IMG/VR virus record: IMGVR_UViG_3300037493_003671
Location: 1-27,084 of that record
Length of the DNA: 27,084 nucleotides
From: a virus
Reading direction: 5' to 3' (one strand)
Part shown: piece after piece, positions 12,472-27,084 of the stretch
How the letters are laid out: every line of letters starts with the position of its first letter
Numbering within the stretch: position 1 is the stretch's first letter
Position numbers and translations under genes: made by a program
Notes under the pieces: model-generated
What the model was told of the DNA's origin: nothing
Database searches by the model: none
What the model saw: only the letters and a program-made list of their open reading frames with translations

Positions 12472-12485
12472 ACTGTTCCTTGAAT

Positions 12486-13257: not shown

Positions 13258-13278
13258 CTGATGACATCCTTTGAATCA

Positions 13279-13307: not shown

Positions 13308-13378
13308 GCGTATTCATAGTATATTAATTGATGAACATCAGATTATCAAACAAAAAGATAATATACGAAGGAAGTCAT

Positions 13379-14568: not shown

Positions 14569-14582
14569 CAAAAGGAGAAACC

Positions 14583-15050: not shown

Positions 15051-15058
15051 GGCTACCT

Positions 15059-15562: not shown

Positions 15563-15799
15563 TGTAGTTCTCTCAGGAGCAATCTGAGATAATTTAATTT
15601 CCATAATGTAATGCACATCACGAATAAATTCATTACGCATAGCAGAAGGCGGTTCAAATGGCGGTTTTAAAGCAAACTTGCCATACGAATTCCATAATTT
15701 ATTATACCATTTATTCCACAAGTGTTCTACAGTTCCTCGTTTATACTTCTTCTTATTGAAATCGCTTACGCGCAACTTAGTATATCGATCATTTAACAT
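15548..15799 (-). CDS. Small basic unknown protein, 83 aa
   Basis: A Lys/Arg- and Trp-rich small protein (EHLWNKWYNKLWNSYGKF, about residues 25-42) with no recognised motif. Its ATG overlaps the end of the kinase gene by 11 bases, as is usual for this leftward operon. The final codons overlap the convergent rightward gene. Its reality is supported by operon position and the lack of any other reading of this stretch, but the ribosome site is weak. The basic and aromatic composition could suit nucleic-acid binding. Confidence 0.5.
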   Translation of the reverse strand: MLNDRYTKLRVSDFNKKKYKRGTVEHLWNKWYNKLWNSYGKFALKPPFEPPSAMRNEFIRDVHYIMEIKLSQIAPERTTLKNN

Positions 15800-16472
15800 T
15801 CTTCATGCTCATCTTTGGATATTTACTATGAATAATATCAATTATCTGAGACAATCCTTGATGATCGACATTCCAAGCCACACGATGTACGTCACATTTA
15901 CCAGACCACTCATGGTTTCCATTCTTTAAATCAACCATGATATCAAAATAATGATCTCGTAAATCAGAAAGATAAGCTAAATCAACTGAAACTTCTGCAC
16001 TTCGATCTCGATTCTTAACTCTACGTAAGGCCACTTCAGGTTCTACATCTAAGAAAAATAAATCACAAGGAGCCTTCGGTAAATTAATAAGATGTTTGTA
16101 ATAGCACATATATAATTTATGATCTTTCTCATCTATATTGCCTCTTCGATGGTGCATAAGTTCGAATGCTAGATCACCAGGCAAACCTCTATCTAAAGCG
16201 CAAGCTTCGTATTCATATCCATATAATGATTCTACCGTGGCAAGTTGATGCGTCTCTGAGCGTTTTATTGCAAAATATAATTGTGCTCTACTTGCATATA
16301 TCTTTGGTTCTTTATATGAACAATCAAAATATGGATTCTCTTGAAAACGCTCATCGAATACTCGTATATTAAATATTTTTTTAAGTTCTTCTAATAAAGA
16401 AGATTTTCCAGAACCAATAAGTCCTTCAATCCAGAATATCGGATTACCAGCATCATAATGCCTCCAACTCAT
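15789..16472 (-). CDS. Deoxynucleoside kinase, 227 aa
   Basis: It transfers phosphate from ATP to deoxynucleosides, feeding dNTP synthesis. The P-loop GLIGSGKSS (residues 17-25) follows a short strand, as in dNK/thymidine kinase 2-type enzymes. The ALDRGLPGD motif corresponds to the family's DRS/DRG site. The lid region RVKNRDRSAE carries several Arg, and DERFQENPYF supplies the substrate-side acidic residue. The start is ATG 16472, eight bases after AAAGGAG; a longer open frame would extend into the tRNA-Met gene and is rejected. It lies in one operon with ThyX, which fits dTMP/dTTP supply. Substrate specificity cannot be read from sequence. Confidence 0.82.
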   Translation of the reverse strand: MSWRHYDAGNPIFWIEGLIGSGKSSLLEELKKIFNIRVFDERFQENPYFDCSYKEPKIYASRAQLYFAIKRSETHQLATVESLYGYEYEACALDRGLPGDLAFELMHHRRGNIDEKDHKLYMCYYKHLINLPKAPCDLFFLDVEPEVALRRVKNRDRSAEVSVDLAYLSDLRDHYFDIMVDLKNGNHEWSGKCDVHRVAWNVDHQGLSQIIDIIHSKYPKMSMKNVK

Positions 16473-16483
16473 AGCGTCTCCTT

Positions 16484-16558
16484 TGGTGGGCGCAGAGAGA
16501 TTTGAACTCCCGTCCGATCGGTTATGAGCCGATGGCTCTACCACTGAGCTATACGCCC
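16484..16558 (-). tRNA. tRNA-Met (anticodon CAT), CCA encoded
   Basis: A complete cloverleaf of 75 bases on the minus strand. The 7-bp acceptor stem is GGGCGTA/TGCGCCC with one G-U pair, and the anticodon loop is CTCATAA between ATCGG and CCGAT. The T-arm is GGGAG-TTCAAAT-CTCTC, followed by discriminator A and an encoded CCA. Anticodon CAT could read Met, or Ile (AUA) if lysidine-modified; the sequence alone does not decide. Its first base is the last base of the thyX stop codon. Confidence 0.93.
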
Positions 16559-17229
16559 TAAAATAATTTACGTGCTCGTTCTGTTACTACAATATCGTCA
16601 AATAAAATTGGAATTCTACGTTTGAATTCATCTAATATAGCAATAGCAATTTCTCTCATTTGAGGATGAGCAGCTTCGGCTGTACGAAGTTTAAAAAACC
16701 ATCTCCATTCACGCATATTAAAAGTCATTACAATTTCTGTTTTTAAACTATTAGGCAACACAGACCTTGCCTCTTGCGGCTTGGCTCCATTAGCAATCAT
16801 TTTAAAATAATAATTTTCAGCAATAGACATAAATTCTAACCATAAAGCATATAACTCAAAATCTTTATGATCTTGAATATTTCTATCTGACCAAAAACAC
16901 GGATCAATAATTGTAAGTTCATTTCCAAATTTATCTTTTGTATAATTATTATATCTTGTGCTTTCTTGTGAATAACTTGCAATCCTATGACGAACAATTT
17001 CGTGTGTAACGCCTCGATCGCAAATCACTCTAACCGTAACTTTCTCATGTTCAATTACAGAATCATGATGGCGCACTTCAAGTAAGTTTTTTAAAAATGG
17101 AATATACGAATCACCAGTAATTGTACCTTCAGACTTGTAACATGTTCTTGCTGCTTTCTCTATCTTCTTGCAAATACCAATCCCATCAATTTGGTCTTCT
17201 ATCGAAAAACTTGCACTAACGATTCGCAT
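16558..17229 (-). CDS. thyX: Flavin-dependent thymidylate synthase ThyX, 223 aa
   Basis: It converts dUMP to dTMP using FAD and methylene-tetrahydrofolate. The signature RHRxxSxxxxSxRY is present as RHRIASYSQESTRY (residues 80-93), preceded by VRHHDSVIEHEKVTVRV (about 52-68) and followed later by MREWRWFFKLRTAEAAHPQMREIA, which carries the C-terminal Arg and the dUMP/FAD-side residues. Length is typical. The start is ATG 17229 (MRIVSAS), with AGGAAG just upstream. An ATG four codons earlier is less likely. Its stop codon shares a base with tRNA-Met, so the tRNA is cut from the same transcript. It pairs functionally with the kinase downstream. Confidence 0.93.
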   Translation of the reverse strand: MRIVSASFSIEDQIDGIGICKKIEKAARTCYKSEGTITGDSYIPFLKNLLEVRHHDSVIEHEKVTVRVICDRGVTHEIVRHRIASYSQESTRYNNYTKDKFGNELTIIDPCFWSDRNIQDHKDFELYALWLEFMSIAENYYFKMIANGAKPQEARSVLPNSLKTEIVMTFNMREWRWFFKLRTAEAAHPQMREIAIAILDEFKRRIPILFDDIVVTERARKLF

Positions 17230-17515
17230 GTTCTTCCTCATCTCTCTTTATTGCCAGAAGAGCATAACCACAAATATCTCGCCATGGACTTTCGCCAAGC
17301 GCGTCTTTTTTCGTTGCTATGCGAAACAATTTATCAATTACTCTAACAACAGCTAGAGCATCGTCCATTTTCTCAAGTGGTATTCCATTTGGATATAAAA
17401 CAGACATTATATATCCAGATCTTCCAAACGAATCGCCATATGCGGCTTGTTTCGTTTCAACAAGACCACCTATTTCTTGACCTATCTCAGCAAAAGTTTT
17501 CTCTCTGGTCTTCAT
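17216..17515 (-). CDS. Small helical phage protein, DUF1599-like, 99 aa
   Basis: An all-helical protein with the pattern KQAAYGDSF...YPNGIP...DDALAVVRVIDKLFRIATKKDALGESPWRDICGYALLAI. The order YGD-S-F, then D-A-L-x-x-x-R-x-x-D-K-L-x-R-I and a closing D-x-x-G-Y-A-x-L, matches small proteins of the DUF1599 (nucleotide-modification associated) type found in many phages. Their biochemical role is not established; MazG-like nucleotide handling has been one idea. It overlaps thyX by 14 bases and the J-domain gene upstream by four, placing it in the nucleotide-metabolism operon. The family call is moderate. Confidence 0.6.
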   Translation of the reverse strand: MKTREKTFAEIGQEIGGLVETKQAAYGDSFGRSGYIMSVLYPNGIPLEKMDDALAVVRVIDKLFRIATKKDALGESPWRDICGYALLAIKRDEEEHANR

Positions 17516-17859
17516 CTTTCTCCTCCTAATACAAACTTATACAACCATGCTCTCGCCATAGAGAGCATTTGCATCTTTTTAGTTGCCCCGCCCTTGTCTG
17601 GATGATATCGAAAAGCAACTTGATGAAAACCAGCATCTATTATTTCTTTTATCAATGGTTTTAATTCATGAGAGGGAATAAACTTAGGCATCTGTAAAAT
17701 ATCCGATACAATATCTGATCGCTCTCGACGTGCAATTTCCCTATCAATAGCACTTCTTAAAGGCTCTCTCAAGTCGTCTAACGAAACAAGCCAATTAATA
17801 TATTCTGATGGTAATTCTTCAATTTCTGTTCCTTTATATTTACCAAAAAGTATTTTCAT
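17512..17859 (-). CDS. DUF3820 domain fused to a J-domain, 115 aa
   Basis: Residues 3-45 show the DUF3820 pattern: FGKYKG, then LPSEYINWL, then a basic amphipathic helix. Residues about 60-110 form a J-domain core with the catalytic HPD tripeptide (residues 86-88) inside AFRYHPDKGG, followed by helix MQMLSMARAWLYKF. J-domains stimulate Hsp70/DnaK ATPase through HPD, so this protein could redirect host DnaK to a phage client bound through the N-terminal domain. Helix I appears short. The gene lies between tRNA-Lys and the DUF1599-like gene. The domain reading is strong; the DnaK role is inferred from family knowledge. Confidence 0.75.
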   Translation of the reverse strand: MKILFGKYKGTEIEELPSEYINWLVSLDDLREPLRSAIDREIARRERSDIVSDILQMPKFIPSHELKPLIKEIIDAGFHQVAFRYHPDKGGATKKMQMLSMARAWLYKFVLGGER

Positions 17860-17868
17860 TTTATTAAA

Positions 17869-17944
17869 TGGTGAGGGCAGAGAGATTCGAACTCTCGGCC
17901 TGCGGATTAAAAGTCCGCTGCTCTACCTACTGAGCTATGCCCTC
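17869..17944 (-). tRNA. tRNA-Lys (anticodon TTT), CCA encoded
   Basis: A complete 76-base cloverleaf on the minus strand. The acceptor is GAGGGCA/TGCCCTC, the D-arm GCTC-AGTAGGTA-GAGC, and the anticodon stem-loop GCGGA-CTTTTAA-TCCGC gives TTT. The T-arm is GAGAG-TTCGAAT-CTCTC, followed by discriminator A and encoded CCA. Its first 18 bases also encode the last five residues and the stop codon of the upstream gene. An AAA/AAG-reading tRNA suits the Lys-rich, AT-rich coding of this phage. Confidence 0.95.
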
Positions 17945-18178
17945 TTTTTTCCACCAAGAAATAATCTCAGATTGTTCTAAAGCCTTTCCAGGTTTAAAAG
18001 ACACAATAAACCAACCATGTTTTGGATGGTAAATTGCTGAAACAGCGTCGCCATAACTAATATGATTTCCTAAAGCAATACTTACTTCGAGTGGCGGCAC
18101 TCGAAAAAGATATTTTTCTTTGTATTCTGGACTAACTGCAAAATTTATTAATTCAATCGCTGTTATTTGGAGAATCAT
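17927..18178 (-). CDS. Small unknown protein ending inside tRNA-Lys, 83 aa
   Basis: The protein has an N-terminal segment ILQITAIELINFAVSPEY and a compact middle with ISYGDAVSAIYHPKHGWFIVSFKPG, which looks like a small alpha/beta domain. The last codons (GAG GGC ATA GCT CAG TAG) are the acceptor and D-arm of tRNA-Lys, so the stop is the conserved D-loop TAG. The start is uncertain: ATG 18178 or ATG 18190, both inside the end of the NYN gene and neither with an ideal ribosome site. The longer open frame back to 18346 overlaps NYN coding and is rejected. Function unknown. Confidence 0.6.
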   Translation of the reverse strand: MILQITAIELINFAVSPEYKEKYLFRVPPLEVSIALGNHISYGDAVSAIYHPKHGWFIVSFKPGKALEQSEIISWWKKEGIAQ

Positions 18179-19019
18179 TTCCTTCTTCATCAGATTGAAG
18201 TGTTCTGATGGCTCGACATCCGTCCTTGGCTTCATAAGTTTCAATTTCGCCCCCATCAATAGCAACCTGAAGAAGACGCTTACGCTCTTCTCGATCGCGA
18301 GGCAAATTTGCCGAGCGCCATTCATTGATGAACATATTAGCGCCAACGTATCTATCTTTACCGAAATACTCTTCGGCTTCCATCAGAGCAGAAACCATGT
18401 TGTAATTCTTTTCTTCACCCTTGTTATCGTCGTGAGCGTATTCGTCATAAACTTCCGACAAATCAATATGGCCATATGCCATCTGTCGTAAACGACGCGA
18501 TAGACCATGACCAGAAAATGTAGCAACCCAAGCTGGCTTGCCCAAATCTCTCAATGCTTCAAGCGCAGGGCTATGATCTGCATCGCCACTGCATAACACG
18601 GCAGTATCAAAAGCACTGATAGCTGCTTGGCGAATCATAATAGACACAAGTGATGTATCAACTGCTTTTTCTTCTGTATAGAAGTGTTCGTGGCCGCACT
18701 TATTGCACGCGACCTTTCGATTGCGGCGAGGAAATCTATACACGAAACAACCAGGCTGTGTCTCAAGGAAAGAAAGGAAATTCTCAAGACTGCCTTTCTG
18801 TTCTTCCTCGGCTGTTTCTTTCTTGTCGTCTCCATTTTCCATTGGTTCAATACCAGTGAAATAATGTAGACCAGTTAGAATGTCTCCCTTGACCGCACGA
18901 ACCATTGATTCTGCCAAAGCATGAAAATTGATTTTGGTAGTCAAGCCACTGGCTCGCAAGCCTTCATAAAAGTTCTTGCCGTCCACGAAAATTGCAACCT
19001 TGCCATTACCATTAACCAT
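18153..19019 (-). CDS. NYN-domain (PIN-like) nuclease with zinc-finger insert, 288 aa
   Basis: The NYN/LabA-type metal-dependent ribonuclease core is visible. VAIFVDGKNFY (Asp 13, Asn 16) opens the fold, AVDTSLVSIMIRQAA (Asp 121) follows, and VLCSGDADHSPALEALRDLG (about 142-160) gives the last acidic pair. Between strands there is an insert with CNKCGHEH (about 105-112), a probable zinc site. The C-terminal 80 residues form an acidic helical extension. ATG 19019 has GGAG seven bases upstream; a TTG at 19058 is less likely. NYN enzymes act on RNA; a role in host or phage mRNA/tRNA turnover is inferred. It heads the operon that holds both tRNAs. Confidence 0.78.
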   Translation of the reverse strand: MVNGNGKVAIFVDGKNFYEGLRASGLTTKINFHALAESMVRAVKGDILTGLHYFTGIEPMENGDDKKETAEEEQKGSLENFLSFLETQPGCFVYRFPRRNRKVACNKCGHEHFYTEEKAVDTSLVSIMIRQAAISAFDTAVLCSGDADHSPALEALRDLGKPAWVATFSGHGLSRRLRQMAYGHIDLSEVYDEYAHDDNKGEEKNYNMVSALMEAEEYFGKDRYVGANMFINEWRSANLPRDREERKRLLQVAIDGGEIETYEAKDGCRAIRTLQSDEEGNDSPNNSD

Positions 19020-19072
19020 TGGAACTCTCCGATCTTTTGGGTTTTGGGTTAGGTTCAACTAAAGTTAAAGAC

Positions 19073-19104
19073 ATTATACTCTTTCAATTGAAATTTTAAT
19101 TCAA
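19073..19104 (-). promoter_or_regulatory. Probable promoter with palindromic elements upstream of the NYN gene
   Basis: A perfect TATAAT lies at 19073-19078 on the minus strand, about 54 bases before the NYN start codon. No good -35 sits at the ideal distance (TTGAAT at 19099-19104 is 20 bases away). A perfect 12-bp palindrome (19082-19093) and an overlapping ATTGAA/TTCAAT repeat (19087-19105) occupy the spacer, as an operator might. Confidence 0.5.
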
Positions 19105-19460
19105 TATTTTGCAACTACAGCCAAACCAAGTTCTATTAAAAGAGTATTTAAATTTCTTCTCGCTCTTTCATATGTGAAATGAACTTCAGCCAAATAACGA
19201 CCATATTTTTCTTTCTTATCTTTCTCAGTTTCGATTTCTACTTGAGTGCTAATTGGAAGATACTTGCATAAAAAATCTACTGTCTCCATTCCTTTTTTAT
19301 ATTCCTCAGAATCTTTTTTTGTACTGTAAATTTCTGGAGCATTAATTCCTGACAAACGAAATCTTTCCTTAAAATGAATATTGAATCCCAAATCAACATC
19401 AAGATCGATTGTATCTCCGTCAACGATTCTGATAACTTCAGCAAAATATTTGTAAGCCAC
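19101..19460 (-). CDS. Staphylococcal-nuclease-like protein (SNase/YncB type), 119 aa
   Basis: A Ca2+-dependent phosphodiesterase fold that cuts DNA or RNA. Family residues are present: IVDGDTIDLDVDLGF (residues 12-26, with Asp 16 and Asp 21), RFRLSGINAPE (Arg 35, Glu 43) and KYGRYLAEV (Arg 88), followed by NLNTLLIELGLAVV. The start is GTG at 19460, five bases after an ideal AGGAGG. There is no signal peptide, so it would act in the cytoplasm, for instance in host DNA breakdown or phage DNA processing. An extended -10 promoter lies just upstream. It is small but complete for the domain. Confidence 0.85.
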   Translation of the reverse strand: MAYKYFAEVIRIVDGDTIDLDVDLGFNIHFKERFRLSGINAPEIYSTKKDSEEYKKGMETVDFLCKYLPISTQVEIETEKDKKEKYGRYLAEVHFTYERARRNLNTLLIELGLAVVAKY

Positions 19461-19481
19461 GATATCCTCCTGTTTGGAGAA

Positions 19482-19490
19482 ATTATAACA
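19482..19490 (-). promoter_or_regulatory. Extended -10 promoter before the SNase gene
   Basis: On the minus strand TGTTATAAT contains a perfect -10 hexamer (19482-19487) with the TGn extension. This removes the need for a strong -35; only a weak TTTCAT at 16 bases is seen. It sits in the 41-base gap before the SNase GTG start and probably drives that gene. Confidence 0.6.
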
Positions 19491-19501
19491 TATATTCTTG
19501 T

Positions 19502-19849
19502 CTATGAAACATTTTTAGGCATATTCCTAAATACTTCAACGAGAGGCTCTTCGCCTAAATGACTTTCAGATTCTAACTTCAATAAAACATTAGCAAACGT
19601 TTGAAACTCTCTTTTTTTATCTGGAAAATTCTCAGTTATACAATTAGATTCTTTCTTTAATTCTTCAACCAATGTATTTAAAAATAATTTTCTCAAACCT
19701 GCATTAGCTGATATTGAATAACATAAAGTAAATGGCACCACTAAATCTTTGTGTAATTTTCCTTCACCCATAATCGTTTCAAATTTACCTTCTTTAGAAA
19801 AATAGATTGCAGCTTCGCTACCTCTTATCTTTAAAAGCATATGAGACAT
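19502..19849 (-). CDS. Unknown protein, 115 aa, after the AT-hook gene terminator
   Basis: ATG 19849 has GGAG six bases upstream, so the earlier TTG at 19861 is not used. The protein begins with a beta-like segment (MLLKIRGSEAAIYFSKEGKF) followed by amphipathic helices (LRKLFLNTLVEELKKES, then REFQTFANVLLKLESES). No known motif or membrane segment is visible. Its ribosome site directly abuts the U-tract of the AT-hook terminator, so it is probably expressed by read-through and at a lower level. Confidence 0.6.
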   Translation of the reverse strand: MSHMLLKIRGSEAAIYFSKEGKFETIMGEGKLHKDLVVPFTLCYSISANAGLRKLFLNTLVEELKKESNCITENFPDKKREFQTFANVLLKLESESHLGEEPLVEVFRNMPKNVS

Positions 19850-19860
19850 AGTATTCTCCA

Positions 19861-19890
19861 AAAAAGAGCCCCAACGCCCAAGGGCTCTTG
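19861..19890 (-). terminator. Rho-independent terminator after the AT-hook gene
   Basis: Arms 19865-19872 (AAGAGCCC) and 19883-19890 (GGGCTCTT) form a perfect GC-rich 8-bp stem with a ten-base loop. On the minus strand the stem is followed by more U residues (19861-19864). It is the clearest intrinsic terminator in the window. It lies about 53 bases after the AT-hook gene and immediately before the ribosome site of the next gene, so it should lower expression of what follows. Confidence 0.85.
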
Positions 19891-19942
19891 TCGAGGTTGT
19901 TTGGGATGGCGACCCATGCCCCTCAATTTAAAGAAAATCAGA

Positions 19943-20347
19943 TTAAGCTACCGCAGCTTTAGCTTTGGTGATGTCCTTAATGGACTGCTTCGCAGCATCA
20001 CTGAGTTTCGACACGGTTTTCTTTGCGGTCTTGACCTTCTTCTTGCCGCTCTTATTCTTCTTCCGCCAGTTAGCCCAATACGCCTTCATGCGAGCCGACT
20101 GCTCTTTACGCGACTTCGGCCCGCGCTTCTTATTCTTCGCCTTCGGGCCAGGCTTGCGGCCTCGCTTACCGGGCTTTGGCCCTCGCTTCTTGCCTTTGTT
20201 GGGCTTGCGGCCTCGCTTCTTGCCGGGAGCCACGGTTTCGCCACCCGCTAAAGATTCAAGCGTAGCGATTTGCTCATCAAGCATATCGCGCTCATTCTTC
20301 AGCTTTCCCAAAGACTCATTCAGAGTTGCTTGCACTGCTTCCAACAT
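19943..20347 (-). CDS. AT-hook, Lys/Arg-rich DNA-binding protein, 134 aa
   Basis: Residues 1-38 form a short coiled coil, probably for dimerisation. Residues about 43-80 hold a tandem series of AT-hook-like cores (KRGRKPN, KRGPKPG, KRGRKPGPK, KRGPKSR), which bind the minor groove of AT-rich DNA. Then comes SARMKAYWANWRKKNKSGKKK and a Lys/Ala-rich tail ending KAKAAVA. The overall picture is a nucleoid-like or histone H1-like protein that could coat AT-rich phage or host DNA. ATG 20347 follows AAAGGAG. The gene is much GC-richer than its neighbours, partly because Arg/Gly/Pro/Ala codons are GC-rich, and has its own terminator, which suggests high and independent expression. Confidence 0.75.
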   Translation of the reverse strand: MLEAVQATLNESLGKLKNERDMLDEQIATLESLAGGETVAPGKKRGRKPNKGKKRGPKPGKRGRKPGPKAKNKKRGPKSRKEQSARMKAYWANWRKKNKSGKKKVKTAKKTVSKLSDAAKQSIKDITKAKAAVA

Positions 20348-20369
20348 TTTCTTTTCTCCTTTTCTGCTG

Positions 20370-20840
20370 TTATAGATAACCGTTATTGCACATACTCATG
20401 CAATAACTGCGTGCCTCCAAGCAAATGAATCGGGGATTATCAATTTTTTGTTGAACGCAATCACCTGGATATGGCAAAAATTCATGACACTTCTCATAAC
20501 ATTGTTTTTCATTATACCTAATAATATCGCTATCGCGGTCAGTATGCATATCAATACATCGATCTTTTTCTTTATTGCATTTCGAAATCTTTTTTGTCTT
20601 TATGCATTCTTTAAAACTTCTATCACAAACCATCATAATTACTACATTGCTAATACAATAACCATAGAGCGCGGCGTTCGGCAATGCTCGTTGACCAAGA
20701 AACTCACAAACTAATTCCGGTTCATTAACCGAAGAAAATTCAAGATGAATGATTTCGTCTTCTTCTGCTTCTTCTTTCTCTACTGGATTACAACCAAAAA
20801 TAGCCATCACAATAAAAGTCGCAAATAGAATTCGGTTCAT
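20370..20840 (-). CDS. Cysteine-rich lipoprotein, 156 aa
   Basis: The start is ATG 20840 with a full GGAGGT four bases before. Residues 1-17 form a lipoprotein signal (MNRILFATFIVMAIFGC) with Cys 17 as the lipidation site. An acidic linker follows, then a domain with over a dozen Cys, many in C-x3-C or C-x6-C spacings (CDRSFKEC, CNKEKDRC, CYEKC, CLEARSYCMSMC). Such spacing suggests disulfide-linked helical hairpins in the periplasm or on the outer membrane. A second lipoprotein at 22.6 kb has a similar Cys pattern. A superinfection-exclusion role is possible by analogy with T5 Llp, but is not shown by sequence. Confidence 0.72.
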   Translation of the reverse strand: MNRILFATFIVMAIFGCNPVEKEEAEEDEIIHLEFSSVNEPELVCEFLGQRALPNAALYGYCISNVVIMMVCDRSFKECIKTKKISKCNKEKDRCIDMHTDRDSDIIRYNEKQCYEKCHEFLPYPGDCVQQKIDNPRFICLEARSYCMSMCNNGYL

Positions 20841-20889
20841 TTTGACCTCCAGTATTAAGTTATATATACCATCTCGATTAAGATATCTA

Positions 20890-21339
20890 CTATTTTTTAT
20901 CATGCACCTGATTAATTAACTGATGCATTCGCTCATCAAAAATTGCGAAAACATTCTTAGCGTCACAGAGAACCGCCATAAAAGCCTTGAAAGGTACAAA
21001 GCAATCGTGTTCAACGCCATCAAACGAAAGACGCTGACGTATACCCTCGTTATTTAAAATGATTTCGGAAAGGAATCTACGACTGAAATCCAGAATCAAA
21101 ACCTTATCATTCTTGAATTTCTCTGGAACAACGGCTTCTTTTTGAGGATCGACAAAGATTCTAACGAGTCCTGCGTTAAGCAATCCGTTAATAAATTCAA
21201 CAGCATTAATTCTTTTTTCGCTCCTTCGCCGAAGAAGTTCATCGTCTGCGGTTGCTCGTTCATCATTTGCTGGCTGCCCATTTTGATCCTGCTTTCTTTC
21301 CTTAGATGGAAAGTTCAGGATTTTACATTCATCTGACAT
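20890..21339 (-). CDS. SspB-like ClpXP adaptor protein, 149 aa
   Basis: SspB delivers ssrA-tagged and other substrates to the ClpXP protease. After a polar 40-residue leader, the SspB core is readable: GLVRIFVDPQKEAVVPEKFKNDKVLILDFS, then LNNEGIRQRLSFDGVEHDCFVPFKAFMAVLCDAKN, which follows the family's strand order (V-x-V-D-x-x-x-E-G-V-x-V-P, then I-x-F-x-G-x-x-x-x-x-x-V-P-x-x-A). The leader contains ILNFPSK and many charged residues. ATG 21339 lies nine bases after AAGGAG; a TTG three codons earlier is less likely. The classic short C-terminal ClpX-binding tail is not obvious; the protein ends QLINQVHDKK. The phage may use it to steer host proteolysis. Confidence 0.75.
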   Translation of the reverse strand: MSDECKILNFPSKERKQDQNGQPANDERATADDELLRRRSEKRINAVEFINGLLNAGLVRIFVDPQKEAVVPEKFKNDKVLILDFSRRFLSEIILNNEGIRQRLSFDGVEHDCFVPFKAFMAVLCDAKNVFAIFDERMHQLINQVHDKK

Positions 21340-21402
21340 AATGCACAACTCCTTTTCGCACTATACTTATATACCAAATTTTGTTCTAAAATTCTAAAAT
21401 TA

Positions 21403-21960
21403 TTATCGCTGAAATCTTGGTGGATTAGTTTTAAAAAAAGCTAAAGCAAAACCACTTGGTGTAATTGATCGCTCAAATCCACGTTTCATATTTCTTATTT
21501 TACTACCCAATATTGGATCAGTTAATTTAATCTTGGGTTTCTTGAATTTTCCCCATAAACAAGTTTTCTTTGTCCATGGATCGCCAAAAGCACATGGATT
21601 GAATGTCATTTTAGGCGGCCCATAATATTTCGATAATCGGCCTATAGGATTTTCTAAACACCAAAATACAGGATTATATAACCAAACATATCGTAATACA
21701 CAATCACATAATGCAAGAGAATCAAACAGCGCTTTATTTCCTTTCTGTTTCCACCATCGAGCGCCAGATAAACATAAATCCGTACAAGGAGGAGCAGCAA
21801 TTATTCCATATATATTCTCTAAACCACACTTAATAGTGCGAACATCTATGCCGAATTCAAGATCAACTTGAATTACTCTACAACCAGCTTGTAGATATGG
21901 AGCAGACCATACACCACTACGGTCATAAAGAGAAAGAATAGTTGGTTTAGTTCGAGACAA
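21403..21960 (-). CDS. Compact C5 cytosine methyltransferase-like protein, 185 aa
   Basis: The fold and motifs are those of DNA (cytosine-5) methyltransferases, but short. Motif I is LSLYDRSGVWSAPYLQAGC followed by VDLEFGIDV, the catalytic motif IV is AAPPCTDL (Cys 59), and motif VI reads ENP (103-105) instead of the usual ENV. The C-terminus SGFALAFF stands for motif X. There is no room for a full target-recognition domain, as in a phage family with the TFNPCAFGDPWTKKTCLWG signature (about 118-138). It starts with TTG (21960), five bases after GGAGG. It probably modifies phage DNA against host restriction, but target and activity are unknown. Confidence 0.78.
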   Translation of the reverse strand: MSRTKPTILSLYDRSGVWSAPYLQAGCRVIQVDLEFGIDVRTIKCGLENIYGIIAAPPCTDLCLSGARWWKQKGNKALFDSLALCDCVLRYVWLYNPVFWCLENPIGRLSKYYGPPKMTFNPCAFGDPWTKKTCLWGKFKKPKIKLTDPILGSKIRNMKRGFERSITPSGFALAFFKTNPPRFQR

Positions 21961-22155
21961 CTATTCCTCCAAAAATAATTTAATCCCAACTGCATTCTTG
22001 TCTGGATAAACTCTTTGTAATTTAACAACATTTTCTTCTGTTCGATATGGAATAATTGATTTCAACTGTACCATTTGTGAATGGACTTTTTCTCTTGCAT
22101 CAACATCATCTACGGCGTCAAAACGAACTTTCAATGTTAATAGATAATTATTCAT
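21961..22155 (-). CDS. Small unknown protein, 64 aa
   Basis: The start is ATG 22155, seven bases after GAGGAG and inside the end of the preceding gene; the longer frame to 22203 is not supported by a ribosome site. The protein has a strand-helix-strand layout (YLLTLKVRFDAVDDVDAREKVHSQ, then KLQRVYPDKNAVGIKLFLEE). No family is recognised. Its stop abuts the TTG start of the methyltransferase-like gene, and its final codons (GAG GAA TAG) are part of that gene's ribosome site, so the two are coupled. Confidence 0.6.
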   Translation of the reverse strand: MNNYLLTLKVRFDAVDDVDAREKVHSQMVQLKSIIPYRTEENVVKLQRVYPDKNAVGIKLFLEE

Positions 22156-22369
22156 TATTTTTCTCCTCGATGCCATCAGGAACAATATTCCAACATAAAT
22201 CAACTTTCGTAATCAAAAAATTTGTCATTAATTTCTCAACAGAATTTAAAAACATCACGATATTCTTATTTCTGCGAATCCCTCTTGCAGCAACTGTTCC
22301 TGTTAATTTACCTTGATATTCGTCTTCATCTGTTAAATGTTCTTTAATAATCATTACGGGCATCGCCAT
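22148..22369 (-). CDS. Small unknown protein, 73 aa
   Basis: ATG 22369 follows AGGAG by six bases. The product is a mixed alpha/beta-looking small protein with a Gly/Arg-rich middle (GKLTGTVAARGIRRNKNIVMFL) and a Glu/Asn-rich end. No motif or membrane helix is visible. It overlaps the next gene's start by eight bases, so both are likely translated together. Function unknown. Confidence 0.6.
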   Translation of the reverse strand: MAMPVMIIKEHLTDEDEYQGKLTGTVAARGIRRNKNIVMFLNSVEKLMTNFLITKVDLCWNIVPDGIEEKNNE

Positions 22370-22378
22370 CTATGTCTC

Positions 22379-22486
22379 CTATTTTTTGTCGTGCATATCT
22401 ATCGATCTAAGATCAAGAGCAACAATAATTAAAAATATAAAACCAACAATTGCTATTAAATCATCACAATTACAATTCTCAAACAT
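22379..22486 (-). CDS. Tiny membrane protein, 35 aa, coupled to preceding tiny membrane protein
   Basis: A 35-codon frame begins at ATG 22486, which shares bases with the stop codon of the preceding gene (TAATG), a standard coupling signal. It encodes a Cys-containing N-terminus (MFENCNCDD), a strong transmembrane helix (LIAIVGFIFLIIVALDL) and a charged end. No separate ribosome site is obvious, so translation would depend on coupling. It fills a gap otherwise lacking a gene. Single-pass micropeptides like this often modify host membrane processes, but no role is claimed. Confidence 0.5.
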   Translation of the reverse strand: MFENCNCDDLIAIVGFIFLIIVALDLRSIDMHDKK

Positions 22487-22596
22487 TAATAAAATCCACA
22501 TAATTTCAATACAACACCAGCGATAACAAAAAGTGCGCCGATTGTTCCATATATTTTTCGTTTATCGAGTGGTGGCGTCTCTGGTTGATTGCTCAT
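22486..22596 (-). CDS. Tiny membrane protein, 36 aa
   Basis: The start is ATG 22596, nine bases after GAGG and within the end of the lipoprotein gene; longer frames to 22713 run through that gene and are rejected. The polar N-terminus (MSNQPETPPLDKRK) is followed by one transmembrane helix (IYGTIGALFVIAGVVLKL). The stop TAA overlaps the ATG of the next tiny membrane protein. No family is recognised. Confidence 0.5.
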   Translation of the reverse strand: MSNQPETPPLDKRKIYGTIGALFVIAGVVLKLCGFY

Positions 22597-22813
22597 TTTT
22601 CTTATCCTCGCATCTTTCTGTCGCCATACATTCACCGTAAGTTTGAGAACATGAACCTGGCTCATGTGGTTTAGCATTACAATATTGATACTTCTTGTAG
22701 CAATTAAATTCACAATTATCTCTTACTCTTTTAGTTTGTGCTTTATCTAATGCGCCCCAACAAGCGCATAATAGCATTGCCATTAAGCAAAGAATAATAT
22801 TTAATGTTTTCAT
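22562..22813 (-). CDS. Small cysteine-rich lipoprotein, 83 aa
   Basis: A hydrophobic signal (residues 1-17) ends in a lipobox-like LCAC, with Cys 18 as probable lipid attachment site. The mature part carries nine further Cys, with the run NCEFNCYKKYQYC, then CSQTYGEC and CEDKK, which recalls the Cys spacing in the larger lipoprotein at 20.4-20.8 kb. The ATG overlaps the previous stop (ATGA). A secreted, disulfide-bonded lipoprotein of Gram-negative cells is the likely product. Receptor blocking or membrane-surface defence is a reasonable but unproven idea. Confidence 0.65.
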   Translation of the reverse strand: MKTLNIILCLMAMLLCACWGALDKAQTKRVRDNCEFNCYKKYQYCNAKPHEPGSCSQTYGECMATERCEDKKNEQSTRDATTR

Positions 22814-23007
22814 TTATTTACTTTAGCTTCATCGTATTCATCTGTCTTTAAAAGAAAAGTAATTGTATATTTAGATTCATAAACTGGAATAAGCACCAAA
22901 GTACGACAAATATCTTTATCAATACATAATCTACAGATGCCTTTCATATTCCAACTTAATTCGAATAGTTGACTATAACAATCTTCTTCGCCTAATTTAT
23001 TCTTCAT
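22810..23007 (-). CDS. Small unknown protein, 65 aa
   Basis: The protein has an N-terminal segment with several Cys (CYSQLFELSW, then ICRLCIDKDIC) and a beta-like C-terminal half (RTLVLIPVYESKYTITFLLK). The C-x2-C arrangement could bind a metal but is not a recognised zinc finger. Both ends overlap neighbours by four bases (ATGA), so it belongs to the coupled chain. Function unknown. Confidence 0.55.
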   Translation of the reverse strand: MKNKLGEEDCYSQLFELSWNMKGICRLCIDKDICRTLVLIPVYESKYTITFLLKTDEYDEAKVNK

Positions 23008-23204
23008 TTTTTTAATAATCCTCGTTTACCTAATTCCTTTATAGTTTCGTTCCAATAATGAGGCCGTCTAGTTTTCAAACCTTTGGTTCCCATCTCGCTA
23101 TCTTTATTCTGAATCCATATTCTTATACTCTCTTCAATATATTCTCTCTTCTTCTTTTCCATTTCTTCGCGTTTGGCCTTAGATATTTTAGGTCTTAGTT
23201 CCAT
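23004..23204 (-). CDS. Small basic unknown protein, 66 aa
   Basis: A Lys/Arg/Glu-rich helical protein: KISKAKREEMEKKKREYIEESIRIW forms one long helix, followed by TRRPHYWNETIKELGKRGLLKK. No motif is recognised; the basic nature would suit RNA or DNA binding. It is the first gene after a 140-base gap with a credible promoter, and its ribosome site is weak (GAGA). Its stop overlaps the next ATG. Confidence 0.55.
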   Translation of the reverse strand: MELRPKISKAKREEMEKKKREYIEESIRIWIQNKDSEMGTKGLKTRRPHYWNETIKELGKRGLLKK

Positions 23205-23259
23205 GAAAGTTTCTCAAAGTTTTTCTAGGTTTCGGCGCGGATTATTTTCTTTTATCTAT

Positions 23260-23289
23260 ATTATCTTATAGATTTCTATATTTTTACAA
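23260..23289 (-). promoter_or_regulatory. Promoter in the 23.2-23.35 kb gap
   Basis: On the minus strand TTGTAA (23284-23289), an 18-base AT-rich spacer and GATAAT (23260-23265) resemble a sigma70 promoter. It lies about 55 bases before the 66-aa gene and probably drives the group from 23.2 kb leftward. Apart from this, the 141-base gap contains only AT-rich sequence without an open frame of note. Confidence 0.55.
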
Positions 23290-23345
23290 AGTTTTTTCCA
23301 GCCATAAATATTCACATATTTTTCTATATAAAATCAAACAACACA

Positions 23346-23732
23346 TCATCTAATATCATATCTCTCTAACAAAGACTTTAATTCCTCATTTAATACAATA
23401 CCAGAAACATTTCTGACCACAAGTGTATTCAGAGCATCAAACAACTCTGTCTCTCGTATCAAACACGCATCACGCTCTGCGCGCATACGATCCACTTCTT
23501 CTTCTAATCCCATGTCCTCGGCTTGTATCACCATATACGTCCTCAATTCATCAAACACTTCTTTCATTTTGTTCTCCAACAATGCCAACTTCTTTCCATG
23601 TGGCAATTCATTCCTTAACCCCGCTTCATCCATTCGCATAGCGCAACTCACAGCCGCTCCACAAGCCATACAAATTGAATGCCCATATTCATAAGCGCGG
23701 CCCATGCAATCATCAAACTTTCGCGGAGCCAT
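23346..23732 (-). CDS. Unknown helical protein with N-terminal Cys cluster, 128 aa
   Basis: ATG 23732 follows GAGGGTAAA. The first 32 residues hold four Cys (DDCMGRAYEYGHSICMACGAAVSCAM), spaced so that a small metal site is possible. The rest is a coiled coil (about residues 45-100: NKMKEVFDELRTYM, EEEVDRMRAERDACL). It is the last gene of the accessory chain. No family is recognised. Confidence 0.6.
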   Translation of the reverse strand: MAPRKFDDCMGRAYEYGHSICMACGAAVSCAMRMDEAGLRNELPHGKKLALLENKMKEVFDELRTYMVIQAEDMGLEEEVDRMRAERDACLIRETELFDALNTLVVRNVSGIVLNEELKSLLERYDIR

Positions 23733-23739
23733 TTTACCC

Positions 23740-23988
23740 TCACTTACATCCCAGCATTACTTCATCAACTGCTGCATAGACAACTTCAAATCCAGCGATT
23801 ACGGCTGCGTGCCCCAAAATATCTTTATACTCTATTGGTACAATAACCACAGTAGGTTTCTCTACTTGTCTATATCTAAATTCATCTGCCGATTCAAGAA
23901 TCTTGAGGGTTAATTGTCCTGCAAATTCTATCGCAGTAGCCATAACTGCTTTTCCATTTTCATCATATACAGTTCTATCTTCTGTCAT
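23740..23988 (-). CDS. Small unknown alpha/beta protein, 82 aa
   Basis: The start is set at ATG 23988, which shares bases with the previous gene's stop (TAATG) and follows GGTGGAG; the frame four codons longer is less likely. The protein reads as helix (AIEFAGQLTLKILESADEF), strand (KPTVVIVPIEY), helix, strand (GFEVVYAAVDEVMLG). It could be a small folded effector; no motif is recognised. Confidence 0.58.
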   Translation of the reverse strand: MTEDRTVYDENGKAVMATAIEFAGQLTLKILESADEFRYRQVEKPTVVIVPIEYKDILGHAAVIAGFEVVYAAVDEVMLGCK

Positions 23989-24230
23989 TATCTCCACCAT
24001 AAAGAAACATTTGGGATTGTATGAAGAGTTTGAACATCTAGTTCCTCATACAAAATCTTCAAGTCTCTTTCTGCCATACGTTTCGATATTCCAAACTTCT
24101 TCATTACTTGTTTCGTATTTATAGCTGCTTTCCTGCCTTTCGGCAAATTAGCATAAATCAAAGCCAACCGTATATATTTCTTCGAAGCAAGAGATTCAAG
24201 TGCAAAATAAAAATCTAAATCAGAATACAT
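23988..24230 (-). CDS. Small HTH DNA-binding protein, 80 aa
   Basis: Residues about 36-62 (AINTKQVMKKFGISKRMAERDLKILYEEL) form a helix-turn-helix of the winged or DeoR-like type: T-K-Q-V-x-x-x-F-G-I-S-x-R-x-A-x-R-D-L. A helical N-terminus precedes it and a short, Trp-ended beta segment follows. It is probably a transcriptional regulator of phage or host genes. Its ATG overlaps the preceding stop (TAATG). It is the only clear HTH candidate in the accessory chain, so it may act on the repeat-rich right end, but that link is inference. Confidence 0.65.
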   Translation of the reverse strand: MYSDLDFYFALESLASKKYIRLALIYANLPKGRKAAINTKQVMKKFGISKRMAERDLKILYEELDVQTLHTIPNVSLWWR

Positions 24231-24454
24231 TACTTCTTCTCTTTCTTTGCGCTTCTACATTCAAGACACCATGACTGTGCGCCTCGATGAGTTTGTGTCT
24301 GTCGGCTCTCGGCTTCAGACTCACCAAAATCTTCTGGATATTTTTTATACACTACTTGTCCAGCTTTTCTACTACATTCGGGACACGACTTCAACCAATG
24401 GCTTTTACTTAAATCTGTCTCTTCTTTAAAACTATCCCCAAAATAAACTAACAT
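24230..24454 (-). CDS. Small zinc-ribbon-like protein, 74 aa
   Basis: Two Cys pairs, CPEC (about residues 24-27) and CLEC (about 63-66), are separated by 35 residues that include a His and the run YPEDFGESEAESRQTQTHRGAQSW. This suits a small zinc-binding domain of the kind found in phage recombination-endonuclease-like and Zn-ribbon proteins. There is no HNH catalytic set beyond one His. ATG 24454 follows AAGGAG by six bases. Function unknown. Confidence 0.6.
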   Translation of the reverse strand: MLVYFGDSFKEETDLSKSHWLKSCPECSRKAGQVVYKKYPEDFGESEAESRQTQTHRGAQSWCLECRSAKKEKK

Positions 24455-24475
24455 CGCTTTCTCCTTATGGAGATG

Positions 24476-24709
24476 TTATATCTCCACTTTCTTTTTCAAC
24501 AATGCCACTTCCAACTTCAAATCAGCAATTTCTTTATCTCTACCTGCTAATGCAGATTTATGATGCGCTTGCGCTATCATAAATTCTTTCATTATAATAC
24601 CGCAAACTTCCATCATCTCGCTTGGTCTAATTTCTTTAATCTTCAAATGAAGAAGTATCGACTTCGCGGTCTGCATTCCATCAAAGATGGTTTCGCCAGC
24701 TTGTATCAT
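24476..24709 (-). CDS. Small coiled-coil protein, 77 aa
   Basis: A helical protein with a C-terminal heptad pattern (RDKEIADLKLEVALLKKKVEI) preceded by MMEVCGIIMKEFMIAQAHHKS. ATG 24709 follows AGGA and lies one base after the previous stop. No catalytic or binding motif is seen. Probably an oligomer or partner-binding protein. Confidence 0.55.
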   Translation of the reverse strand: MIQAGETIFDGMQTAKSILLHLKIKEIRPSEMMEVCGIIMKEFMIAQAHHKSALAGRDKEIADLKLEVALLKKKVEI

Positions 24710-24710
24710 T

Positions 24711-24998
24711 TTAATTTCCTTTACGCAATCGCGTTTGTAATTGTTTAATTACAATATTCACTTCATCTATTTGTCTTGCCATATCTTCACATCGCCCAAT
24801 ATATTTAGCCAACTCTTGCTGAGTGCCAGCAAGTTCATCACTTATTTGTTTATTCTGTTCATAAACAAATCCAGACACAACAGTTTCAAGATTAGCTTCT
24901 GCTGCTAGCTCATCAGGATACGGTCTATTACGATGACAGACATCCCAATGATGAACTGCGCTCCATAATTTTTCTATATTTTCTTTCGTTAACATCAT
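24711..24998 (-). CDS. Unknown helical protein, 95 aa
   Basis: ATGATG at 24998 follows GAGG. The first half contains LWSAVHHWDVCHRNRPYPDEL and the second half is a coiled coil (NKQISDELAGTQQELAKYIGRCEDMARQIDEV, continuing to the end). The start overlaps the previous stop by four bases. No family is recognised. Confidence 0.55.
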   Translation of the reverse strand: MMLTKENIEKLWSAVHHWDVCHRNRPYPDELAAEANLETVVSGFVYEQNKQISDELAGTQQELAKYIGRCEDMARQIDEVNIVIKQLQTRLRKGN

Positions 24999-25234
24999 AT
25001 ATTCCTCAAGGTTTCTACAGCACGTTTGATTTCGCGTAAATATTCTTCTTTTGAATCTATTTGGTGTTTTAAATCTTCTATGGCTTTTGCCGCAATATAT
25101 CCAAGATGAATATGAGGATTACCTATCTTCGTTCCCTTCAATTCTTTCTTTGCCCAGGCACGTAAATCTTCCGCTATTATATATAGATCGTCTACTTCGG
25201 AATTATAAATATGTAACTTTTTCTTGATTGTCAT
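24995..25234 (-). CDS. Unknown small protein, 79 aa
   Basis: A charged helical protein: HIYNSEVDDLYIIAEDLRAWAKKEL, a short loop GTKIGNPHIHLG, then AAKAIEDLKHQID and a final helix. It shares ATGA overlaps with both neighbours, so it belongs to the coupled chain. No function can be assigned. Confidence 0.55.
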   Translation of the reverse strand: MTIKKKLHIYNSEVDDLYIIAEDLRAWAKKELKGTKIGNPHIHLGYIAAKAIEDLKHQIDSKEEYLREIKRAVETLRNI

Positions 25235-25632
25235 ATTGTTCCCTCGATTCCGAATTCGGGTAGGTTATCTCCCTCGATCGCTGACCACAGATGTAAAGCA
25301 TACGAATGAATATTTACATGATTCCTTTCTTCAGGAAATATCATCAACGCTTTACGATTTGTTCCTATAAAGAATCTCTTAACCAAACACACTTCATTGT
25401 ACGTTGGAAGTTTATCAGAATAAGCACACGAACAATGTATCCATGTTCGTCCATCGCCAAATTTATCGTCAACCGAAAGGATTACTTCTAGTCCGCTTGT
25501 ATGACGATAAACAATAAATCCCTCTTGAGCATTACGACGATTCCAATCTTTCGGAATCTTTAACGGCGCATATTGATACGTCAACTTTACAGCATGTTGC
25601 CAATCTTCAGATGAGACTTCTGGAATTTTCAT
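25231..25632 (-). CDS. DUF7694-like phage protein, 133 aa
   Basis: A compact protein with the pattern TWIHCSCAYSDKLPTYNEVCLVKRFFIG, then ALMIFPEERNHVNIHSYALHLWSAIEGDNLPEFG. The order W-I-H-x-S-C, L-P-T-Y, F-I-G and N-I-H-x-x-x-L-H-L-W matches small proteins common in phage genomes and classed as DUF7694, whose function is not known. It is complete in length. It starts in an ATGA overlap with the upstream gene. Of the 11 accessory genes in this chain this is the one with the clearest wide conservation. Confidence 0.68.
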   Translation of the reverse strand: MKIPEVSSEDWQHAVKLTYQYAPLKIPKDWNRRNAQEGFIVYRHTSGLEVILSVDDKFGDGRTWIHCSCAYSDKLPTYNEVCLVKRFFIGTNRKALMIFPEERNHVNIHSYALHLWSAIEGDNLPEFGIEGTI

Positions 25633-25826
25633 AATAGTTTGTCCCTGAGTTCCAATAATTCTTGAAAGACTCTTCGTATATTATCTTTGTAGTCTGAATA
25701 TTGATTATATTTATCGTATCCAGAGCAACGATGAACTACAAGTTCTGCCAAATGATGAATAGCAGATGTTAATGCTTCTTTAGCTTCGCTTAGATGTCTG
25801 TCTGCTTCGCTCATTTCGTCACTCAT
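25629..25826 (-). CDS. Small helical unknown protein, 65 aa
   Basis: ATG 25826 is preceded by an exceptional ribosome site, AAAGGAGACGAA, inside an 18-base segment repeated exactly upstream of another gene at 26430. The protein is two or three amphipathic helices (RHLSEAKEALTSAIHHLAEL, then YKDNIRRVFQELLELRDKLL). No motif is recognised. Confidence 0.55.
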   Translation of the reverse strand: MSDEMSEADRHLSEAKEALTSAIHHLAELVVHRCSGYDKYNQYSDYKDNIRRVFQELLELRDKLL

Positions 25827-25840
25827 TTCGTCTCCTTTAA
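25823..25840. repeat. Copy 1 of an 18-bp gene-junction repeat
   Basis: This exact 18-base segment also occurs at 26427-26444. On the minus strand each copy encodes L-K-E-T-K-stop of one gene and holds AAAGGAGACGAA plus ATGA, the ribosome site and start of the next. Confidence 0.8.
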
Positions 25841-26137
25841 CTTTACAGTATTACAATCTGCATCTTTAAAAGGACACGGTTTATTTAAAGTGTCCAACTT
25901 TTTCTTTAAAACTATTACTTCATGTTCAGAATCGCGCCATGCGCTAATAGTCATTAAATAATCAGCAGCAGTCGCAATCATTAACCACGCTTGCTGATCG
26001 CATGGTGTGTCTTCAAATATTTGATAGAATATTAAAGCACGATTACGAAGTTCCCATAATTCATGCGTTGTGAAAGCTTTAGCTTCGAATCCTTTAGTTT
26101 CAACACAATGACCTTCATGCGTCATTACGTCTTTCAT
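25823..26137 (-). CDS. Unknown helical protein, 104 aa
   Basis: ATG 26137 follows AAGGAAAAGAA. The protein is mainly helical, with HELWELRNRALIFYQIFEDTPCDQQ, then WLMIATAADYLMTISAW, then a coiled-coil-like segment and a Cys pair (CPFKDADC). Its last residues, LKETK, are encoded by the repeated 18-base junction. No function can be given. Confidence 0.55.
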   Translation of the reverse strand: MKDVMTHEGHCVETKGFEAKAFTTHELWELRNRALIFYQIFEDTPCDQQAWLMIATAADYLMTISAWRDSEHEVIVLKKKLDTLNKPCPFKDADCNTVKLKETK

Positions 26138-26430
26138 TTCTTTTCCTTCTTGGCTGGTAATGGTTTCTTATCTACTTTATTTATTCTTTTCTCAATTTCA
26201 TAACAATCCAATTCATTCAGTGCATCTTTTACTTCATTCAGATCCAATCTAATAATGGGATCTGGAATATCTTTTGGATTATCACCTTCTTCTTCGCATT
26301 CTCTTTTGGCAATACACAACTGTTCTACGTCACGATAAGTGCTTCGTTCAATCCAGAAATAATACAACATATCGTCGTCATCATGTTCTGGATCATCAAC
26401 CAATACATATTTCTTTAGAAGAACTTTCAT
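26134..26430 (-). CDS. Acidic unknown protein, 98 aa
   Basis: An acidic protein with DDPEHDDDDMLYYFWIERSTYRDVEQLCIAKRECEEEGDNP and a Lys-rich tail (KKPLPAKKEKK). Strong negative charge with aromatic residues at the start would suit a DNA-mimic or protein-binding role, but that is a guess. ATG 26430 has the repeated AAAGGAGACGAA ribosome site. Confidence 0.55.
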   Translation of the reverse strand: MKVLLKKYVLVDDPEHDDDDMLYYFWIERSTYRDVEQLCIAKRECEEEGDNPKDIPDPIIRLDLNEVKDALNELDCYEIEKRINKVDKKPLPAKKEKK

Positions 26431-26444
26431 TTCGTCTCCTTTAA
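26427..26444. repeat. Copy 2 of the 18-bp gene-junction repeat
   Basis: Identical to 25823-25840 and in the same relation to the genes around it: end of one gene (LKETK), ribosome site and ATGA start of the next. Confidence 0.8.
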
Positions 26445-26747
26445 TCTCTGTATACCGATCTCTCTACATTTCTTTGCCACTGCACATAATTTACTACAAA
26501 TCCGTTCCTTAGAATCATATAGCCCCAAATCGTAACAAACATAACCCATATAATCGACTGGAGTTGGGTATTTCCCTTGGCAGAATTTGCACGAGAGATA
26601 GCGTCCGTCCATGAATTTACGTTTGCTTCCGCAGAATTCGCAGTATTCATTCTTGAGTTGCTGAAATATTTTCAGACGCTCAAGTTTGGAAAGATGCGTG
26701 AACATCTGTATGAAATTATTGGAGAGATGCCGGTGTTGGTTTAACAT
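26427..26747 (-). CDS. Zinc-ribbon-like protein, 106 aa, first gene of the accessory chain
   Basis: A CEFC...CKFC pair (about residues 36-57, with RYLSCKFCQGKYP) is a clear zinc-knuckle pattern, followed by VCYDLGLYDSKERICSKLCAVAKKCRE with more Cys. The N-terminus is helical. The start is uncertain: ATG 26747 lies only six bases after TATAAT, so the transcript would be nearly leaderless. ATG 26705 is an internal alternative, but lacks a ribosome site. Probably DNA- or RNA-binding; the family is not recognised. Confidence 0.55.
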   Translation of the reverse strand: MLNQHRHLSNNFIQMFTHLSKLERLKIFQQLKNEYCEFCGSKRKFMDGRYLSCKFCQGKYPTPVDYMGYVCYDLGLYDSKERICSKLCAVAKKCREIGIQRLKETK

Positions 26748-26753
26748 ACCTTG

Positions 26754-26759
26754 ATTATA
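26754..26759 (-). promoter_or_regulatory. TATAAT element at the head of the accessory chain
   Basis: A perfect -10 hexamer lies six bases upstream of ATG 26747 on the minus strand. No good -35 is visible at 16-18 bases. It would start transcription at or just after the annotated start codon. The gene-free region beside it probably contributes activator or repressor sites. Confidence 0.45.
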
Positions 26760-26819
26760 CGATATTTCCGTAGATTAAATCTCTAAAAATTACGTGGTTG
26801 TGTGTAGCTCCTGGGAGAA

Positions 26820-27084
26820 TGTTGGTTATGCATGATGTGAGAGATGTTATGCATATTGGAAGTGTAAAAATGGACCGCGAATTATTTGGGCACCTAGTTG
26901 TGCATTTTCCATGCCAGGCTACCATCCGTCCAGTCATACACTACGTGACCATACACTACTATGCATAACCATACAGTACATGGTATGCATAGCATTACCT
27001 GGTGTCGTTGTGTCATGTTTTGACCATATAATGCAACACAACACAATAACTATGTTTTGACCATACATTGCATCATATTGCATA
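26820..27084. repeat. Repeat-dense gene-free region at right edge
   Basis: From 26748 to the window end no credible gene is seen. The region holds four copies of TATGCAT (around 26827, 26848, 26960, 26984), of which two are within GTTATGCAT spaced 21 bases apart. ACCATA occurs four times (26948, 26968, 27023, 27060). CATACACTAC occurs at 26935 and 26950, with a variant at 26970, and a 14-bp direct repeat ATGTTTTGACCATA lies at 27015 and 27052. Inverted arms GTTGTGT/ACACAAC lie at 27007-27013 and 27036-27042. Such iteron-like density suits an operator cluster, replication origin or packaging/recognition region; the sequence alone does not choose. Confidence 0.65.

Follow-up and report, generated by a model that had tools for sequence, protein, structure and literature searches.

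The terminal region of the window and its gene context

The window (the whole stretch of DNA that was analysed) is an entire IMG/VR record of 27,084 bp, a tailed-phage fragment with terminase, Mu-type portal, capsid and structural genes on its left side. Rightward of the structural genes follow a nuclease gene, ThyX, two tRNAs and then small leftward genes as far as position 26747. The last 337 bases (26748-27084) lie upstream of this chain and are cut by the contig end; they are a conserved control region, with the following features.

15548..26747, minus strand: chain of small genes headed by the control region (from the ORF map)
26748..27084, no strand: noncoding control region that heads the leftward chain (no convincing ORF; repeat excess; homology to 18690-19304 of the relative G009)
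26754..26759, minus strand: TATAAT, exactly 6 nt before the ATG at 26747 (from the sequence; role putative)
26827..26833, plus strand: TATGCAT site 1 (GGTTATGCATGA; sequence and shuffle statistics)
26848..26855, no strand: TATGCATA palindrome 2 (TGTTATGCATAT), 21 bp from site 1 (a family enriched in G009)
26885..26932, minus strand: conserved core TGGACGGATG-N6-TGGCATG-N4-ATGC-N6-AGGTGCC (three-phage alignment)
26901..26917, minus strand: -24/-12 (sigma-54-like) promoter motif CTGGCATGGAAAATGCA, 11/13 consensus positions
26933..26979, minus strand: three GTAGTGTATGGTCA-type units (CATACACTAC on the plus strand), spacing 15 and 20 bp, upstream of the core
26960..26967, no strand: TATGCATA palindrome 3 (ACTATGCATAAC; sequence and shuffle statistics)
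26984..26991, no strand: TATGCATA palindrome 4 (GGTATGCATAGC; sequence and shuffle statistics)
27015..27028, plus strand: 14-bp direct repeat ATGTTTTGACCATA, copy 1 (extended, 24 bp at 88%)
27052..27065, plus strand: 14-bp direct repeat ATGTTTTGACCATA, copy 2

The ORFs that traverse 26748-27084 are of at most 60 amino acids and none is gene-like, in agreement with an earlier reading of the DNA (the sequence-only reading) which had described the region as gene-free. Its claim of a composition different from that of coding DNA also held: the GC content is 39%, compared to ~36% in the adjoining genes, and the GC skew, strongly negative along the gene chain, weakens within the region. An Rfam scan matched no family in 26748-27084 (tRNAs were the only matches), while folding of the region as DNA gave z = -0.5, indicating no special secondary structure. 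The first gene of the chain (26427-26747) is predicted to encode a protein with two CxxC motifs and had no family match; its start lies ~145 nt downstream of the -24/-12 motif and has no good Shine-Dalgarno sequence. The TATAAT at 26754-26759 has the geometry of the sigma-70 -10 box of a leaderless mRNA; a good -35 is absent and a consensus promoter scan did not return the site.

The repeats listed in the sequence-only reading were all recovered, namely four TATGCAT (26827, 26848, 26960 and 26984), four ACCATA (26948, 26968, 27023 and 27060), two exact CATACACTAC (26935 and 26950) with the variant CATACAGTAC (26970), the 14-bp direct repeat ATGTTTTGACCATA with a spacing of 37 (27015 and 27052) and two GTTATGCAT copies 21 apart (26825 and 26846). 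The four TATGCATA-type sites, which begin at the TATGCAT positions, flank the core on both sides, and five TGTATGGTCA-type units lie between the core and the contig end of the window; the direct-repeat units of the array are 14-24 bp long and 70-88% alike, with spacings of 15, 20, 55 and 37 bp. Repeat statistics were obtained from 2000 dinucleotide-preserving shuffles of 26748-27084. The observed number of repeated 6-, 7-, 8- and 9-mer pairs was matched in 0/2000 shuffles (22 repeated 8-mer pairs, compared to a shuffle mean of 2.1), while four ATGCAT were reached in 2/2000 and eight TGCA in 14/2000. Equal repeat scores elsewhere in the contig were confined to low-complexity coding stretches, such as the lysine-rich gene at 19943-20347 (its lysine/arginine/proline-rich product is histone-tail-like). 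A paired-TATGGTCA scan of viral contigs gave, among the matches listed, no locus resembling the window array; two inspected loci (L022 and L085) were rejected as repetitive stretches unrelated to it.

Further left in the window, 13258-13378 is the divergent promoter of the terminase chain, with a sigma-70-like TTGCSA-17-TAKRAT that aligned with L003 and L004. The ATGCAT of this promoter was rejected as a conserved operator, as it is not conserved in L003 or L004 and the copy at 13378 is the Met-His start of the nuclease gene, conserved as coding sequence.

Related phages and the shared core

Searches with four neighbouring genes of the window (26427-26747, 26134-26430, 25231-25632 and 17216-17515) gave no relatives, and relatives were picked by terminase alignment. 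These were G009 (109,973 bp, terminase 61% identical), G004 (142,861 bp, 57%) and G011 (147,747 bp, 49%), along with the more distant G013, G015 and G016 (about 39-42%; G016, 39%). A terminase search of genomes for the host returned only a Candidatus Fermentibacteria MAG contig (Guaymas; probably mis-binned) and distant Bacillota. G009 and the window have a common gene order from 2032 to 19861 of the window, and in G009 a chain of small genes, co-oriented with the terminase, begins at ~19.3 kb, directly after a noncoding stretch. ThyX is present in both (16558-17241 in the window), while the same neighbourhood in G004 holds a synthase that is ThyA-type by eye (131198-132145).

When the 337-bp array was compared with both strands of G009 by local alignment, the top match was noncoding sequence at 18,690-19,304, in the same sense, with a score of 198; the second-best place scored 157 and 300 shuffles scored at most 177 (0/300 reached 198). 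A noncoding region with significant repeats heads a co-oriented chain of small genes in the window and is homologous to the G009 region at the same place. Of the terms used in the sequence-only reading, 'master switch for the accessory chain' fits this position at the head of the chain in both phages, and so does 'binding array', which is right in kind.

Within the region, three phages share a core block of about 60 bp that includes a -24/-12-type promoter motif. The window core aligned with G009 19020-19066 and G004 115039-115083, and its sense is that of the terminase gene in 3/3; its general form is TGGACGGATG-N6/7-TGGCAyG-N4-nnGy-N6-AGGTGCC, with the text CTGGACGGATGGTAGCCTGGCATGGAAAATGCACAACTAGGTGCCC in the window (minus strand), TGGACGGATGTTACTGTTGGCACGATAATTGTTAATCCAGGTGCCC in G009 and TGGCCAGATGTTATGTTGGCACGATTCTCGCAATGTTAGGTGCCG in G004. 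The elements TGG-C-G-ATG, TGGCA, G and AGGTGCC are kept in the three-way alignment at almost fixed spacing. A core-spacing scan of the viral collection returned G004, G009, two more contigs with the G004 sequence and two chance-looking matches. In G004 the core faces oppositely oriented neighbouring genes, yet keeps its sense relative to the terminase, so that it is not simply the promoter of the adjoining chain there; this is the main weakness of a simple promoter reading. Conservation of the array in relatives, which the sequence-only reading had made a check on its proposal, proved to be partial: the ~60-bp core and the TATGCATA palindromes are conserved, while the TGTATGGTCA/CATACACTAC repeats were not found in relatives among the matches listed in a pattern scan of viral contigs.

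In G009 the TATGCATA palindromes are enriched and mostly intergenic or at 5' ends, and TTATGCATAA is the commonest 10-bp palindrome (11 copies, compared to 0.27 expected). Copies of the latter flank the G009 core and recur at 103 kb; they are often paired, 12 bp apart, close to the starts of genes, at these places:

L190 16401-19990: G009 TTATGCATAA palindromes around the core
L195 3025-3132 (G009 103025-103132): G009 TTATGCATAA palindromes at 103 kb

Recurring at other control points as an operator does, the 11 G009 TTATGCATAA copies look like a phage-wide operator. The window region also has the make-up of an operator/promoter region: it is noncoding, heads a transcription unit and has multiple palindromic sites. 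The first gene after the G009 region (L190:19359-19898) encodes an RHH_1 domain, preceded by an HExxH segment that is ImmA/IrrE-like by eye, and its product is a natural candidate for the palindrome binder. CopG has TGCA-centred sites in arrays, and the resemblance to CopG/RHH operator arrays lies in such sites and in this RHH_1 gene, the difference being that the first chain gene of the window is not RHH. The layout is also like that of lambda OR/OL-type switches, with several palindromes at helical spacing beside gene-chain promoters and with the recurrence of the G009 palindrome at other control points; unlike those switches, it has 8-10 bp TTATGCATAA palindromes, an extra direct-repeat array and a binder that is only putative.

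Tandem repeats were also observed in two relatives. Directly downstream of the G009 core there is an A+T-rich, exact 18-bp tandem repeat of four units (CCCCCAATTTTTAAAATT; L190:19076-19147). The G011 contig has a CCAGCTGGACCGAGGGGCG tandem repeat at both ends (L196 1-120 and the end of L203), which places the contig break inside a repeat array.

The -24/-12 motif and its possible readers

The -24/-12 promoter consensus of sigma-54 is TGGCAyG-N4-TTGCW, with invariant GG and GC doublets and a transcription start ~12 nt past the GC doublet; such promoters require sigma-54 together with an AAA+ enhancer-binding protein, and their upstream activating sites usually lie at about -45 to -190. The window motif is imperfect (TGGCAT, ATGCA) with both doublets present, and its consensus score of 11/13 is tied with that of one other site. 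Scores elsewhere were 13/13, 12/13 and 12/13 in G004, where the 13/13 site and its two neighbours share one noncoding stretch, and 12/13 in G009, with GC altered to GT. The top consensus site of G009, G004 and G011 falls in the early control region of each phage.

A distant relative, G016, has nine TTGGCAT-N5-TTGCA elements in its early region (70-82 kb) and four more elsewhere.

G016 (L230-L231), the nine elements with strand: 70623-, 72159-, 75795-, 76115-, 76904-, 77684-, 78087+, 79521+, 81579+

Seven of the nine have, no more than 75 nt downstream, a Shine-Dalgarno sequence and the start of an ORF with 40 codons or more (12% at random); by eye, a Shine-Dalgarno-like sequence and ATG also follow the remaining two. 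The nine elements are very probably promoters. GACGG 8-10 bp upstream of TGGCA is common to some of them, the window and G009. A matrix built from the nine G016 elements alone had control-region sites as its two best hits in each of G004, G011 and G013; its best hit in G009 was the control-region site 18909-, not the core site, and in the window the core site ranked fourth. Taken alone, the window motif is thus a weak promoter candidate, to which the conservation of the surrounding block lends backing.

In G004 a noncoding stretch (114660-114909; L010:4660-4909) directly upstream of the strongest -24/-12 site (114619-, perfect) consists of 25 tandem 10-bp units of the form A-Y-A-W-W-N-R-M-R-Y in strict register without indels, with A at position 1 and a pyrimidine at position 2 in 25/25 units (periodicity z = 22.6 compared to shuffles). 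Identity with the window array was rejected, as the matrix made from the G004 units did not single it out and the two therefore differ in sequence; the common point is the layout only, in which an array of short repeats directly precedes a -24/-12-like element.

The resemblance of the window and its relatives to sigma-54 promoters comprises a TGGCAYG-N4-TTGCW-like motif whose GG and GC lie 10 bp apart, window repeats 45-190 bp upstream of it and a conserved AGGTG at the expected transcript start, ~12 nt past the GC; the differences are the imperfect window copy and phages in which no sigma-54 or activator was found. Neither a sigma-54 DNA-binding domain nor a sigma-54 activator domain was found in the seven phage records searched. 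Searches for a phage-encoded RNA polymerase gave none with PF00562, and PF00940, run without a positive control, was also empty. A sigma-70 region 2 protein was found in five relatives (G004, G011, G013, G015 and G016, the last just below cut-off); these small proteins, each possibly a phage sigma factor, are L243 (G016, 95.2 kb), L240 (G004, 95.4 kb), L239, L241 and L242. No sigma-70-family factor was found in G009, an incomplete record, or in the window, a fragment. In view of these results the reader of the motif may be host sigma-54 or a phage sigma, and recognition of the window motif by sigma-54 is a putative step.

That the -24/-12 motifs are promoters of a phage sigma-70-family factor instead of host sigma-54, with the array as a regulatory flank, is a tentative possibility; it is a variant of the promoter/operator explanation given below and the two overlap. 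The five region 2 proteins beside the missing sigma-54 and activators speak for it, as do A+T-rich TATA/TAATA sequences after the -12 motif in G016, but the GG/GC doublets 10 bp apart and the TTGCA/T fit sigma-54 far better than a -35/-10 promoter, and G009 (incomplete) and the window (fragment) yielded no such factor. It is a rather doubtful proposition that sigma-54-type promoters drive the early and accessory chains in this family of large tailed phages, with phased upstream arrays acting in an enhancer-like manner. No phage promoter of the -24/-12 type turned up in the literature searched.

A probable promoter/operator switch and its alternatives

The main rival to a promoter/operator switch is a phage replication origin, in which the repeats would bind an initiator and the core with its A+T-rich flanks would be the start site; we consider this unlikely, a minority possibility. 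Clustered direct and palindromic repeats do adjoin a conserved core, the A+T-rich 18-bp array lies directly downstream of that core in G009, and the cumulative GC skew of G009 has its minimum at the region. The strongest argument for an origin is the sense of the core relative to the terminase, kept in G004 despite the reversed neighbouring chain. However, the skew minimum of G004 tracks the switch in gene orientation at ~126 kb, away from the core at 115 kb, which makes GC skew unusable as evidence of an origin; the origin proposed in the sequence-only reading gains no support from this quarter, and an orientation-independent skew minimum at the site, as expected of an iteron origin, is not seen in G004. 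The motif moreover occurs nine times as gene-proximal promoters in G016, and the G009 palindromes are scattered over several intergenic and 5' sites in an operator-like manner. Iteron origins (P1 oriR, R6K, lambda ori) likewise have direct repeats in a noncoding stretch, but the window copies are short, irregularly spaced and diverged, not near-identical direct repeats of ~17-22 bp at regular helical spacing, and none of the adjacent genes tested to the left of the region is an initiator (Rep/O-type) gene. With neither an initiator gene nor evidence of replication found, the label 'iteron' was not earned.

A DNA packaging or centromere-like partition site, its phased repeats coated by a small terminase or a ribbon-helix-helix protein, is improbable. 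The control regions of relatives do carry strikingly phased arrays (the 25 tandem 10-bp units of G004), the window has a weak 5/10-bp periodicity at 26930-27050 and an RHH gene adjoins the G009 region; against this, the matrix of the G004 array does not recover that of the window, the terminase genes are ~14 kb away and no partition genes were seen. An ordinary intergenic spacer, with repeats due to chance or to an assembly end, is very improbable. Assemblies often break inside repeats, the contig end falls inside them here, and they were not found elsewhere among the matches listed in the viral-contig scan; the repeat excess (0/2000 shuffles) and the G009 homology at the matching place oppose this explanation, and the latter largely refutes it.

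With moderate confidence, we interpret 26748-27084 as the promoter/operator control region of an accessory gene chain in a large tailed phage, and probably as an on/off switch. Leftward transcription of the chain would start near AGGTG (~26890), driven by the -24/-12 motif, by the TATAAT at 26754-26759 or by both. The ATGCAT palindromes on either side of the start would be the sites of a dimeric DNA-binding protein, and the TGTATGGTCA repeats, at roughly -45 to -190, those of a second protein, possibly an activator; together the two would turn the chain on or off.

If this is true, an uncultured phage family would have a testable promoter/operator code, in which a -24/-12-type promoter and a TTATGCATAA operator both recur, with a repeat array ahead of them. 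If the sigma-54 reading is also true, phage expression would be tied to host activators and through them to nitrogen, stress or developmental state, which would explain the timing of accessory-gene switch-on; phages dependent on sigma-54-type promoters appear to be undescribed in the literature searched. Elsewhere in the window, 20890-21348 encodes an SspB-like protein (an adaptor for the degradation of tagged proteins), with weak Pfam and PHROG matches.
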